In this document: piece after piece, positions 49,323 to 64,000 of the stretch | Numbering within the stretch: position 1 is the stretch's first letter | Layout of the letters: each line of letters opens with the position of its first letter | NCBI RefSeq assembly: GCF_000761215.1 | Contig: NZ_CP009438.1 | Coordinates: 186,001 to 250,000 of the forward strand | DNA length: 64,000 bases | From: Streptomyces glaucescens | Lineage (GTDB): Bacteria; Actinomycetota; Actinomycetes; Streptomycetales; Streptomycetaceae | Direction of reading: 5' to 3' | Translations under genes and position numbers: made by a program | Notes under the pieces: generated by a model | The model's database searches: none | Told to the model about the DNA's origin: nothing | What the model saw: the letters and a program-made list of their open reading frames with translations, nothing else

Positions 49323-50300
49323 TCATGTCGCGGCGAGCAGGGGACGCCACCAGTCCTCGTGCCGCTCGTACCACTTCGCGGTGTCGGCCAGCGCGGTCGC
49401 GAAGTCGGTGCGCGGCCGGTAACCGAGTTCCGCGGTGATCTTGCTGTGGTCGACCGCGTAGCGCCGGTCGTGCCCCTTGCGGTTCTCGACGTGGACGATG
49501 CGCTCCGGGCCCGCGCCGCACAGTGCGAGCAACCGGTGCGTGAGCTCCAGGTTGGGCAGCGAGGTGCCGCCCCCGATGTTGTAGATCTCTCCCGGCCGGC
49601 CCGACACGCGGACGAGTTCGACGGCCCTGACGTGGTCGTCGACGTGCAGCCAGTCGCGCACGTGCCGCCCGTCGCCGTAGAGGGGAACGGTGCCGCCGGA
49701 CAGGAGGCTGGTCAGGAAGCGCGGTATGAGCTTCTCGGGATGCTGGTGGGGGCCGAAGTTGTTCGAACAGCGGGTCACCCGGACGTCCAGGCCGTGGGTG
49801 CGGTGGTGGGCGAGCGCCATGAGGTCCGAGGCCGCCTTCGACGCCGCGTACGGCGAGGTCGGGAGCAGGGGGTCGCTCTCCGCGGCGGCCCCGTGCGGGA
49901 GGGAGCCGTACACCTCGTCGGTGGAGACGTGCACGAAGGTGCGCACACCGTGGCGGAGCGCGGCGTCGAGCAGGACCTGGGTGCCCAGCACGTTGGTGCG
50001 GGTGAAGGCACCGCTGTCGGTGATGGAGCGGTCGACGTGCGACTCGGCCGCGAAGTGCACGATGTCGTCGTGCCGCGCGGCCAGCGTGTCGACGAGCGCG
50101 GTGTCGCACACGTCGCCCTGGACGAAGGTGAGGCCGGGATGGTCACGCACCGCGTGCAGGCGGGCGAGGCTGCCGGCGTAGGTGAGTTTGTCGAGGACGG
50201 TCACCGCGACGCCGCCGGGGGCCCCGGGCGACAGGAGCCGGCGGACGTAGGCGGAGCCGATGAAGCCCGCTCCGCCGGTGACGAGGATGGTCGTGGTCAT
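49323..50300 (-). CDS. rmlB: dTDP-glucose 4,6-dehydratase (AcbB-like)
   Basis: 325 residues, extended SDR enzyme: NAD-binding GGAGFIGS (8-15), STDEVYG with the catalytic Thr-Asp-Glu, and the YxxxK pair in SPYAASK. It makes dTDP-4-keto-6-deoxy-D-glucose. ATG at 50300 overlaps the rmlA stop (ATGA). There is no rmlC/rmlD here, so the product is not heading for rhamnose. The nearby aminotransferase would convert it to dTDP-4-amino-4,6-dideoxyglucose, the amino sugar of acarviose. Confidence 0.95.
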   Translation of the reverse strand: MTTTILVTGGAGFIGSAYVRRLLSPGAPGGVAVTVLDKLTYAGSLARLHAVRDHPGLTFVQGDVCDTALVDTLAARHDDIVHFAAESHVDRSITDSGAFTRTNVLGTQVLLDAALRHGVRTFVHVSTDEVYGSLPHGAAAESDPLLPTSPYAASKAASDLMALAHHRTHGLDVRVTRCSNNFGPHQHPEKLIPRFLTSLLSGGTVPLYGDGRHVRDWLHVDDHVRAVELVRVSGRPGEIYNIGGGTSLPNLELTHRLLALCGAGPERIVHVENRKGHDRRYAVDHSKITAELGYRPRTDFATALADTAKWYERHEDWWRPLLAAT

Positions 50301-61179: not shown

Positions 61180-64000
61180 GTGCACATCATCACCTTCTCC
61201 TTCGAGTGCGGCGGCTTCGACAACCGGCTGATGCGCGGCGGGCTGTCCCCGCTCGTGTGGAACCTCTCGCGCGCGTACGCCGCGCGCGGTCACCGCGTCT
61301 CGCTGGTCACCCCCGCGCACGGTCACCTGCCGGCCCTGCGGGAGCGGTTCGACGTACGGGAACTCGACTACCGCGACGAGCACACGGTGCCGCTGGTGCT
61401 GGACCCCAAGGTGTGGCCGGACCAGCCCGCCGGGACCGGCCTGTCCCTGGACACCCGCGCCCATCTGCTGCGCCTGGACGGCGTCGACGTGTACCTGCTG
61501 TCCGACGCCTTCCTGGACCTGCTGCCGGACCGGCTCTACCCGCCCCCGGCGTTCGAGGGCCGGGACCTGGCGCACGCCAAGCCGCTGGTCTTCCAGGTCG
61601 GCGGGCTGCGCTTCCTCCAGCGTCACCTCGGGGACGGCCCGGCGATCGTGCACGGCTTCGAGCCCTACTACCACTACCTGCTGCCCGCGGTCCTCGCCGA
61701 GGACGACCGCTTCCGGACGGTGAGCACGGTCGCGGCCAACGCCCCCGTCACCCAGAAGGTGTACCGGCCGCAGGTGGAACGGCTCCTGGAGCTGTTCGGG
61801 GTGCGGGGCCCCGACCTGGACGCGCTGGACGGGCCGGCGCCCGCCGAGGACTCCCCCATGGCGACCGTGGCCCGGGCCCTGGCCGGCACGCGGATGCACG
61901 TCGAGTACGGCCCGGACCACGTGGGCGTGTTCCCGCTGGTCGTCGCCGGGGCGGATCTCGTCGACTTCGTGTCCTCCGGTCAGCGCGACCACTACGTCAC
62001 CTGGCAGGACACGCCCTTCGAAGCCCTCTTCCGGTCCCTGCCCGTGTCCCGGCGGCTGCGTGAACGGCCGGACCGGCTGCTGGCCGGCGGCTGCGGCATC
62101 TCCGACAGCTGGCTGGCGCGCGACCCGGGGGCGGTGGACCGCGCCGCGGTGCGCCGGTCGCTCGGCCTGACGGTGCCCGGCCCGGTCTTCTACCACGCCG
62201 CCCGCTACGCGGTGCACCACAAGGGGCAGCTGGAGCTGATGCGGGCCGTGCGGGAGGTGCTGGCCGACGATCCGGAGGTCGGCTTCGTGATCCGCTGCGC
62301 GACCGGGGGAGGCGGTGACGCTCCGGCCGTGGCGGCCAACGCCGCGTTCCAGCGACTGGCCGACCGGTATCCGGGCCGGCTCTACCTGGACTGGCGGCTC
62401 GCCGACGAGGACACCCTGTTCGCCCAGGCGGCCTGCGCCGACTTCTGCGTCTTCCCCTCGAAGTTCGAACTGGACGGCTTCCTGATCGCCCAGGCCGAGG
62501 CGATGGCCTGCGGCGCGGTGCCCATCGCCACCGCCCAGCGGGTGACCTCCCACTTCGGGCACCAGCGTCCCCTCGGCGATCCGGCGGCGACCGGCTTCTC
62601 GGTGCCGGGTTCCTTCCGGGACGACGACGCGGGCCTGGCCCGCGCCCTCGCGGAGCGAATACGCGAGGCCGCGACGGTCTTCCGTACGGAGCCGGACACC
62701 TACGCCCGGCTGTCGCGCAACGCCCGCCGCCTCGCCCGCTCGTTCACCTGGGCCCGCAGCGCGGACCTGCGCCTGACCGCCTACGACCGGCTGTGGCGCG
62801 GCGAGCGTGCGCAGCCCACGGCCGGCGAACTGGTGGAGTGGGGCTGGCTGGAGGCGCTGCCCCCCGCCGCCCTTGCCGGGCACCGCGACCTGATCGTGCG
62901 CGCGGCGACGGAACGCGGTGACGACCTCGCCCTCGCCCGCGCTCTCGGGTGCGGCACGGACGAACTGGAACCGGACACCTGGGAGCGGCTGTTCGCGTCG
63001 GCCCACGACCGTGGGGATTTCGTCCGCTGCGCCGAACTGGCCCGCCGGGCGGGCCGGCCCGACCTGCAGGCCCGCCTGGCGAACCGGTTCCGCGTCTTCG
63101 GCGGTCCGGACGGCACCTGGCGGGTGCGGTACACGCATCCGCGGGCGGACCGGGTCGAGCTGGTGGCCGAGGCGTCCCCGGCGGCGCCCGGCGCCGGTCC
63201 GGACGCGGCCGCGGCCGCGGCCGCCGAGGGGACGCCCGGCCCGCTGGAGTCGGCCACCGAGACCCTCGCCTCCGACGAACCGGCTCCCGCACCCGGCGGC
63301 GCCGTCCTGCGGCCGCTCGCCGCGGACGGCCGCGGAGGGTTCTCGGGGACGCTGGACGGGCCGCCCGTCGCGAGCCACGCCGTGGCCATGGTGACCCTGC
63401 GCTCCGGCCGGGTCGTCTGGGACGCCGTACCGACCCGGGCACCGGCGTTCCGGCTGGTGGCGACCGACCTGGACGGCACCCTGCTGCGCAGCGACCTGAC
63501 GGTGTCCGCCCGCACCCGGCGCGCCCTGGAGCGGGTCGCCGCGGCCGGCGCCCACCACCTGGTGGTCACCGGCCGGCCGGCGGTGGCCTGCCGGCACCTG
63601 CTCGGCACCCTCGGCTACCGGGGGCTGGCCGTCTGCGGCCAGGGCGCGCAGCTGTACGACGCCGGCGCCGACCGACTGCTGTCCTCGCAGTCCCTGGACC
63701 GCGACCTGGCCCGCGACGTCGTCGCGAAGGTCGAGGCGGAACTCGGCCCGGTCGAACTCGGCATCGTCACCTCGCCGCCGGAGAGCCGGTTCAAGGTCAC
63801 CCCGGCCTTCGGCGAGCGGGTCCGGCACGGCTGGGACGTGACCGCCGACCGGGAGCTGCTGTGGAGCGCGCCCATCGACAAGCTGATCCTGCACCACCCG
63901 GACGTCGACGAGGACCGGCTGGCCGCCGTCACCCGGCGGCTGACGGGCGGCGAGGTGACCGTCGTGCACTCGGTCAAGGGCATGGTGGAGGTCCTGCCCG
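61180..64000 (+). CDS. Glycosyltransferase fused to a HAD phosphatase (AcbI-like plus phosphatase), 3' end outside window
   Basis: At least 940 codons, open at the right edge. GTG at 61180 follows GAGGGG, 11 nt after the kinase stop. Residues 1-~740 are a paralogue of the first GT: HIITFSFECGGFDNRLMRGG, WNLSRAYAARGHRVSLVTPAHG, FYHAARYAVHHKGQLELM and FCVFPSKFELDGFLIAQAEAMACG. An Ala-rich linker follows (~675-700). From ~756 a HAD Cof-type phosphatase begins, with the nucleophile loop VATDLDGTLL and motif II VVTGRP. Such a fusion could add the acarviose unit to maltose and remove the 7-phosphate in one protein. Confidence 0.85.
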   Translation, partial: MHIITFSFECGGFDNRLMRGGLSPLVWNLSRAYAARGHRVSLVTPAHGHLPALRERFDVRELDYRDEHTVPLVLDPKVWPDQPAGTGLSLDTRAHLLRLDGVDVYLLSDAFLDLLPDRLYPPPAFEGRDLAHAKPLVFQVGGLRFLQRHLGDGPAIVHGFEPYYHYLLPAVLAEDDRFRTVSTVAANAPVTQKVYRPQVERLLELFGVRGPDLDALDGPAPAEDSPMATVARALAGTRMHVEYGPDHVGVFPLVVAGADLVDFVSSGQRDHYVTWQDTPFEALFRSLPVSRRLRERPDRLLAGGCGISDSWLARDPGAVDRAAVRRSLGLTVPGPVFYHAARYAVHHKGQLELMRAVREVLADDPEVGFVIRCATGGGGDAPAVAANAAFQRLADRYPGRLYLDWRLADEDTLFAQAACADFCVFPSKFELDGFLIAQAEAMACGAVPIATAQRVTSHFGHQRPLGDPAATGFSVPGSFRDDDAGLARALAERIREAATVFRTEPDTYARLSRNARRLARSFTWARSADLRLTAYDRLWRGERAQPTAGELVEWGWLEALPPAALAGHRDLIVRAATERGDDLALARALGCGTDELEPDTWERLFASAHDRGDFVRCAELARRAGRPDLQARLANRFRVFGGPDGTWRVRYTHPRADRVELVAEASPAAPGAGPDAAAAAAAEGTPGPLESATETLASDEPAPAPGGAVLRPLAADGRGGFSGTLDGPPVASHAVAMVTLRSGRVVWDAVPTRAPAFRLVATDLDGTLLRSDLTVSARTRRALERVAAAGAHHLVVTGRPAVACRHLLGTLGYRGLAVCGQGAQLYDAGADRLLSSQSLDRDLARDVVAKVEAELGPVELGIVTSPPESRFKVTPAFGERVRHGWDVTADRELLWSAPIDKLILHHPDVDEDRLAAVTRRLTGGEVTVVHSVKGMVEVLP

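Follow-up and report, generated by a model that had tools for sequence, protein, structure and literature searches.

The acarbose (gac) gene cluster in a stretch of Streptomyces glaucescens DNA and a possible cupin-containing cyclitol branch

Acarbose, a drug for type 2 diabetes, is the predicted product of a gene locus in a 64,000-nucleotide stretch of Streptomyces glaucescens DNA (contig NZ_CP009438.1, positions 186,001 to 250,000; hereafter the window). This locus is almost certainly gac, the acarbose cluster already published for S. glaucescens GLA.O; the product is predicted from the genes. An earlier note on the window had proposed an acarbose-type cluster at 49323-64000 beside a maltose regulon, naming gac as a comparison; the cluster is in fact gac itself, so that the finding is correct, already in print and not new. 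The cluster does occupy that interval, but its boundaries lie further out. In window numbering continued to the right, the locus spans 32463-69851, with the importer, the amylases, a second LacI-type regulator and an inhibitor gene on the left and the cyclitol genes on the right. What looked like a maltose regulon is the importer arm of the cluster itself (GacHFG), together with GarC-type LacI regulators. The source genome comprises 7,623,774 bases in two contigs (7,453,200 and 170,574 bases); genes were called by codon-position G+C and named by Pfam.

The identification is carried by gacH (46682-47956, minus strand), encoding the acarbose/maltose-binding protein. Residues 37-424 of its product (388 residues) are identical to crystallised GacH (PDB 3jzj, 3k00 and 3k02), and the sole two mismatches in the alignment are the HM of the PDB chain, immediately N-terminal of the identical stretch and likely a cloning remnant. 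In excerpts of the published work, gac is the acarbose cluster of S. glaucescens GLA.O (PMC10146171, PMC8234114) and contains two LacI regulators (GarC1/2), GacQ (SGLAU_01030), amylases and Gaim (PMC10146171, PMC5526262, PMC13240717). Because these published components match genes found here, and because of the GacH identity, the locus is taken to be the known cluster. Likeness to the GLA.O cluster covers GacH, the two LacI regulators, GacQ, the amylases and a tendamistat-type inhibitor, with no difference found against the published descriptions in these excerpts. A record of S. glaucescens NRRL B-2706 (L051) is close and not identical, GacS matching at 93% over part of its length. For the GLA.O cluster, other papers cite Ortseifen et al. 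(2015, 2017).

Two biosynthetic enzymes of the locus stand apart from housekeeping families when their bit scores are judged against NCBI model cut-offs (glgC and aroB), whereas RmlA and RmlB exceed theirs. GacR (59118-60251, plus strand), a GlgC-like protein with an NTP_transferase domain and the predicted valienol 1-phosphate nucleotidyltransferase, scores 202.1 bits, far below the glgC cut-off of 424.9. GacC, encoded right of the window (66319-67485, plus strand; DHQ_synthase E 2.5e-35), scores 235.3 bits, below the aroB cut-off of 305; its nearest solved structure is 4p53, a 'Cyclase' (E 8.8e-75), followed by a 3-dehydroquinate synthase (E 6.9e-54). This sugar phosphate cyclase is predicted to be of the 2-epi-5-epi-valiolone synthase kind, not AroB. 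GacK (60248-61168, plus strand), a PfkB kinase and predicted acarbose 7-kinase, has as its best PDB matches the acarbose 7-phosphotransferase 6wb7 (E 2.9e-76) and Mak1 (6.3e-76), with the next at 1.9e-9. Since the glgC and aroB cut-offs are missed and the third protein matches an acarbose kinase, the GlgC-like, AroB-like and PfkB proteins are, as judged by sequence, not housekeeping enzymes.

A scan of genome contigs with GacS returned 56 loci, whose called genes were compared by BLAST at 1e-6. These loci reach at most 10 kb to each side, many absences being locus ends, and several come from the same genome or species (L020-L022; L051 and L054; L053 and L056; L025 and L063). The nucleotidyltransferase GacR has a counterpart in 50 of them, the cyclase and the aminotransferase in 45 each, the ROK kinase in 44, a cupin in 40 and an RmlD-like short-chain dehydrogenase/reductase (SDR) in 33. 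A glycosyltransferase tree of 38 rows was built from the first 560 residues of the window's two enzymes and of those longer than 500 residues at 23 loci picked from the 56. It places GacS and GacI in two separate supported clades (97/93 and 95/90), each with a counterpart from Actinoplanes sandaracinus, and excerpts of PMC9200736 likewise group GacS with AcbS. The hallmarks of acb/gac/sct-type clusters found here are the sugar phosphate cyclase, which by sequence is not AroB, the paired AcbS-type and AcbI-type glycosyltransferases of the tree, RmlA and RmlB with an aminotransferase for the 4-amino-4,6-dideoxyglucose donor, and a GlgC-like nucleotidyltransferase with three kinases (ROK, APH-like and PfkB).

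These comparisons leave virtually no credence to the view that the genes serve glycogen, trehalose or maltose housekeeping and resemble acb by family only. The nucleotidyltransferase, the glycosyltransferases and the 4-alpha-glucanotransferase do belong to glycogen and starch families. However, the glgC and aroB cut-offs are missed by wide margins, an acarbose kinase is the best solved match of the PfkB protein, GacH is identical to a solved acarbose/maltose-binding protein, and the cyclase, glycosyltransferase pair and aminotransferase co-occur in other species. A glycogen or trehalose role, which the earlier note had itself set up as the counter-case, is refuted by the cyclase gene just beyond the right end of the window together with the kinase match, and the nucleotidyltransferase and glycosyltransferase comparisons point the same way.

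The gac cluster is organised around a divergent pair of transcription units, and every enzyme family that the earlier note had named in it is present by Pfam and NCBI models. On the minus strand lie gacB (49323-50300), encoding dTDP-glucose 4,6-dehydratase (RmlB; TIGR01181, 410.3 bits against a cut-off of 365.1), and gacA (50297-51364), encoding long-form glucose-1-phosphate thymidylyltransferase (RmlA; TIGR01208, 407.3 bits against 320.25). Divergent from these are 14 plus-strand genes, gacV, W, X, Y, U, S, R, K, I, Q and C, a cupin gene, gacM and an RmlD-like SDR gene; within the window, neighbours in this run overlap or lie no more than 12 bases apart, which bears out the tight coupling described earlier. 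The run begins with gacV (51626-52918), for a class III aminotransferase (PF00202 E 4.4e-79; 74% identity to its counterpart on A. sandaracinus locus L044, to which GacR is 67% identical), followed by gacW (52915-53943), for the ATP-binding cassette exporter ATPase, and gacX and gacY (53940-54749 and 54746-55546), for exporter permeases of PF06182, presumably the former DUF990. Next come gacU (55554-57023), for an APH-like kinase predicted to be valienol 7-phosphate 1-kinase (PF01636 E 2.8e-6; 44% to the L044 counterpart), and gacS (57026-59125), for a starch-synthase-like pseudoglycosyltransferase on the AcbS side of the tree. Beyond gacR and gacK, gacI (61180-64251) crosses the window end and encodes an AcbI-type glycosyltransferase fused to an AcbJ-type HAD phosphatase (residues 760-1012).

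Right of the window, gacQ (64248-66347, on L006; 4-alpha-glucanotransferase) precedes gacC, the cupin gene (67482-67856), gacM (67837-68931; ROK kinase) and the RmlD-like SDR gene (68928-69851), all on the plus strand. A cyclitol half had been forecast there, and its cyclase, kinase and SDR are in place; the forecast set differs in that a cupin and an RmlD-like SDR stand where AcbO, AcbL and AcbN might have been expected. Likewise, RmlA and RmlB had been described as lacking RmlC and RmlD partners: Pfam finds no RmlC-type gene among the scanned cluster genes, but the SDR gene is RmlD-like. Beyond 69851 the genes lie on the opposite strand; of those scanned, one encodes a MoxR-type AAA ATPase and another is without a Pfam match.

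The left arm lies on the minus strand except for one regulator gene. It comprises a tendamistat-type alpha-amylase inhibitor gene (32463-32822; PF01356 E 7.1e-26), which is Gaim by the description in excerpts of PMC13240717, two GH13 amylases with pullulanase-type domains (33142-36453 and 36603-39791), an alpha-amylase with a CBM20 starch-binding domain (39886-41595), a LacI-type regulator that is one of GarC1/GarC2 (42000-43058; PF00356 E 6.5e-15), a GH13 enzyme with DUF3459 (43046-44728; PF00128 E 1.5e-109) and two importer permeases of GacG/GacF type (44755-45639 and 45636-46658; PF00528 in both), followed by gacH and, on the plus strand, the other GarC (48218-49255; PF00356 E 7.5e-14). In GH13 region II, the two pullulanase-type amylases read GFRVDTVRN and GFRVDTAKN, respectively, with Asn at the usual His, while the CBM20 amylase reads GFRIDAAKH. 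Excerpts of PMC13240717 report that a His-to-Asn change is over-represented among amylases of this kind in the neighbourhood of acarbose clusters, and cite work showing resistance; the region II Asn seen here is probably the same residue.

Two LacI regulators are published for gac (excerpts of PMC5526262), and two LacI genes are present here; the evidence for their operators is mixed. Exact half-sites (CTTGCAG/CTGCAAG) number three in 100 kb, one in the gacH/garC gap, one in the gacA/gacV gap and one within a gene. When a looser form is allowed, half-sites turn up in 27 of 32 gacA-gacV gaps (mean over 200 shuffles 8.1, maximum 15) and in 14 of 15 gacH-garC gaps (shuffle mean 3.75, maximum 8), counts that come from related sequences and from a loose form chosen after looking. 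Conservation of these half-sites as operators is therefore suggestive only.

Several points weigh against identifying the locus as the acarbose cluster of GLA.O. The tie to that strain comes from the GacH sequence, and acarbose as the product is predicted from the genes. A scan for full inverted repeats of the MalR/AcrC kind, in which each arm could carry one mismatch and the spacer could measure 0-6, showed no excess: 5 were found in 100 kb, and 20 first-order shuffles averaged 4.75. Finally, genes for AcbO, AcbL and AcbN are not found among the cluster genes, and the Actinoplanes enzymes consequently leave the middle of the cyclitol route unexplained here.

The search for these three genes went beyond the cluster. 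AcbO of A. sandaracinus gave no match genome-wide in a search run without a positive control, AcbL gave only six partial matches, all outside the cluster (best E 2.8e-9), and AcbN was searched within the cluster and the loci. Across the 56 loci, AcbO and AcbN match none, and the sole AcbL match is on L044, the locus from which it comes and which stops short of AcbN and AcbO. Excerpts of PMC8234114 describe the sct cluster as lacking AcbO, L and N and propose that SctJ is an epimerase and that SctM and SctO carry the route on to valienol 7-phosphate; an alternative cyclitol route has therefore already been proposed in print. The core gac genes are listed as A, V, W, X, Y, U, S, R, K, I, Q, C, J, M and O in excerpts of PMC13240717, and if that list follows gene order, the cupin would be GacJ and the RmlD-like SDR GacO.

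Features of the cupin are compatible with a part in this branch. Its gene adjoins the cyclase gene in all 40 of the 56 loci that have both. All 29 aligned homologues retain His-58, His-60, Glu-65 and His-99 (numbered as in the L010 homologue); His/His/Glu/His is the usual cupin metal set. A model of the L010 homologue (94% identical; mean predicted local distance difference test score, pLDDT, 91.6) has a predicted oxalate decarboxylase as its best PDB match, with phosphomannose isomerase, KdgF and DddK in the top 50, and the modelled fold does not decide the reaction. On L061, L062 and L064, a VOC protein and no cupin match stands beside the RmlD-like SDR, L062 stopping short of the cyclase. 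Among the matches listed, 8 of 113 relatives of the L064 VOC protein are named '2-epi-5-epi-valiolone epimerase' in the source, most others being named 'VOC family protein' or 'catechol 2,3-dioxygenase-like'. Both kinds of protein occur on L063, the cupin being a distant two-domain one (39%) and the VOC relative matching at 47-49% over parts; this weighs against a clean displacement of one by the other and weakens the pattern.

An RmlD-type SDR would more naturally be a reductase than a dehydratase, which leaves the dehydration step without an obvious owner; the cupin may also dehydrate, besides its proposed epimerase role. It is conceivable, though rather doubtful, that the gac lineage solved this mid-pathway segment independently, with the cupin epimerising C2 and eliminating water to the valienone stage and the RmlD-like SDR reducing to valienol 7-phosphate. 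None of the papers that a narrow literature search picked out mentions 'cupin', and absence of the cupin assignment from print is not claimed.

Collinear clusters occur in many Streptomyces. The sct-type cluster of S. coelicoflavus NBRC 15399 (L032, another strain) shares gene order and 63-82% identity for the A-to-M biosynthetic genes in reach, but sct has a different reported product and the GacH counterpart of NBRC 15399 is only 49% identical. Actinoplanes acb (A. sandaracinus L044/L070 here; SE50/110 in papers) has counterparts of V, W, X, Y, U, S, R, I, J, Q, K, M and C. In A. sandaracinus, the genes for the ROK kinase and the cyclase enclose those for an alcohol dehydrogenase-type AcbL, an SDR AcbN and a TIM-barrel AcbO, whereas gac has the cupin and the RmlD-like SDR. 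A. sandaracinus also has a separate AcbJ-type gene directly after acbI, 55% identical to the HAD part of GacI, in contrast to the I-J fusion of gac; I and J are likewise two genes on L037 and L041, and excerpts of PMC13240717 report that acarbose-like clusters vary in glycosyltransferase domain architecture. Ten gac-type loci that are otherwise long (L020-L022, L033-L036, L042, L047 and L052) showed no gacK counterpart within the stretch covered.

More distant GacS-bearing loci differ further. On L057 (Allokutzneria) and L059 (Streptomyces), the cyclase and aminotransferase genes are separated by one for a radical SAM protein (L057:3176-4975, by Pfam; L059:2615-4531, alike by eye). L061-L064 have a GacS relative (44-46%), an RmlD-like SDR and a VOC protein, with no aminotransferase V match in reach; L061, L063 and L064 also carry cyclase, R and ROK genes, and Pfam identifies a GT2-type enzyme on L061 and L063. 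L061-L064 are candidates for another kind of pseudosugar product.

Elsewhere in the genome, a separate operon-like run in the window (21260-31834, minus strand) encodes an amino acid permease, a thioesterase, a P450, a small carrier protein, two AMP-binding enzymes (one with a carrier domain), an asparagine-synthase-like enzyme, an FAA hydrolase and an HMGL-like enzyme, and is likely a small nonribosomal-peptide or amide cluster. A 2855-residue RHS-repeat protein (9793-18360, minus strand) that carries golvesin-C domains and ends in a nonspecific endonuclease domain resembles polymorphic toxins. About 200 kb from gacC, a second cyclase/3-dehydroquinate-synthase-type domain occupies residues 491-740 of a 784-residue frame (L008:9476-11830; contig ~49.5-51.8 kb), whose start is mechanical, so that the true gene may be shorter.

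The pathway chemistry was worked out biochemically in Actinoplanes, where AcbI joins dTDP-4-amino-4,6-dideoxyglucose to maltose and AcbS makes the C-N bond (excerpts of PMC9200736). By orthology, GacC would cyclise sedoheptulose 7-phosphate, and the cupin, GacM and the RmlD-like SDR would putatively convert its product to valienol 7-phosphate, from which GacU, the HAD domain of GacI and GacR would yield GDP-valienol. GacA, GacB and GacV would supply dTDP-4-amino-4,6-dideoxyglucose, the glycosyltransferase domain of GacI would couple it to maltose, and GacS would complete acarbose by forming the C-N bond. Within the cell the product would be phosphorylated by GacK; its export would fall to GacWXY, the change of its glucan length to GacQ and its re-uptake to GacHFG. 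It is quite unlikely that longer acarviosyl compounds of the acarviostatin or trestatin type, rather than acarbose, are the main product: very similar clusters are assigned to producers of such compounds (excerpts of PMC13240717, PMC8234114) and GacQ could extend the glucan part (excerpts of PMC10146171), but gac is published as the acarbose cluster of GLA.O. Gene content by itself does not tell the two apart here.

Read as the gac cluster, the locus is one of the described acarbose producer clusters. Its acarbose-type product, predicted to block starch enzymes, would be made and exported beside the producer's own likely blocker-resistant amylases; the two LacI-type regulators likely couple expression to maltodextrin supply, and the amylases with the reported resistance substitution likely keep starch digestion open to the producer. 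If the cupin both epimerises and dehydrates, it and the RmlD-like SDR would together take the place of AcbO, AcbL and AcbN.

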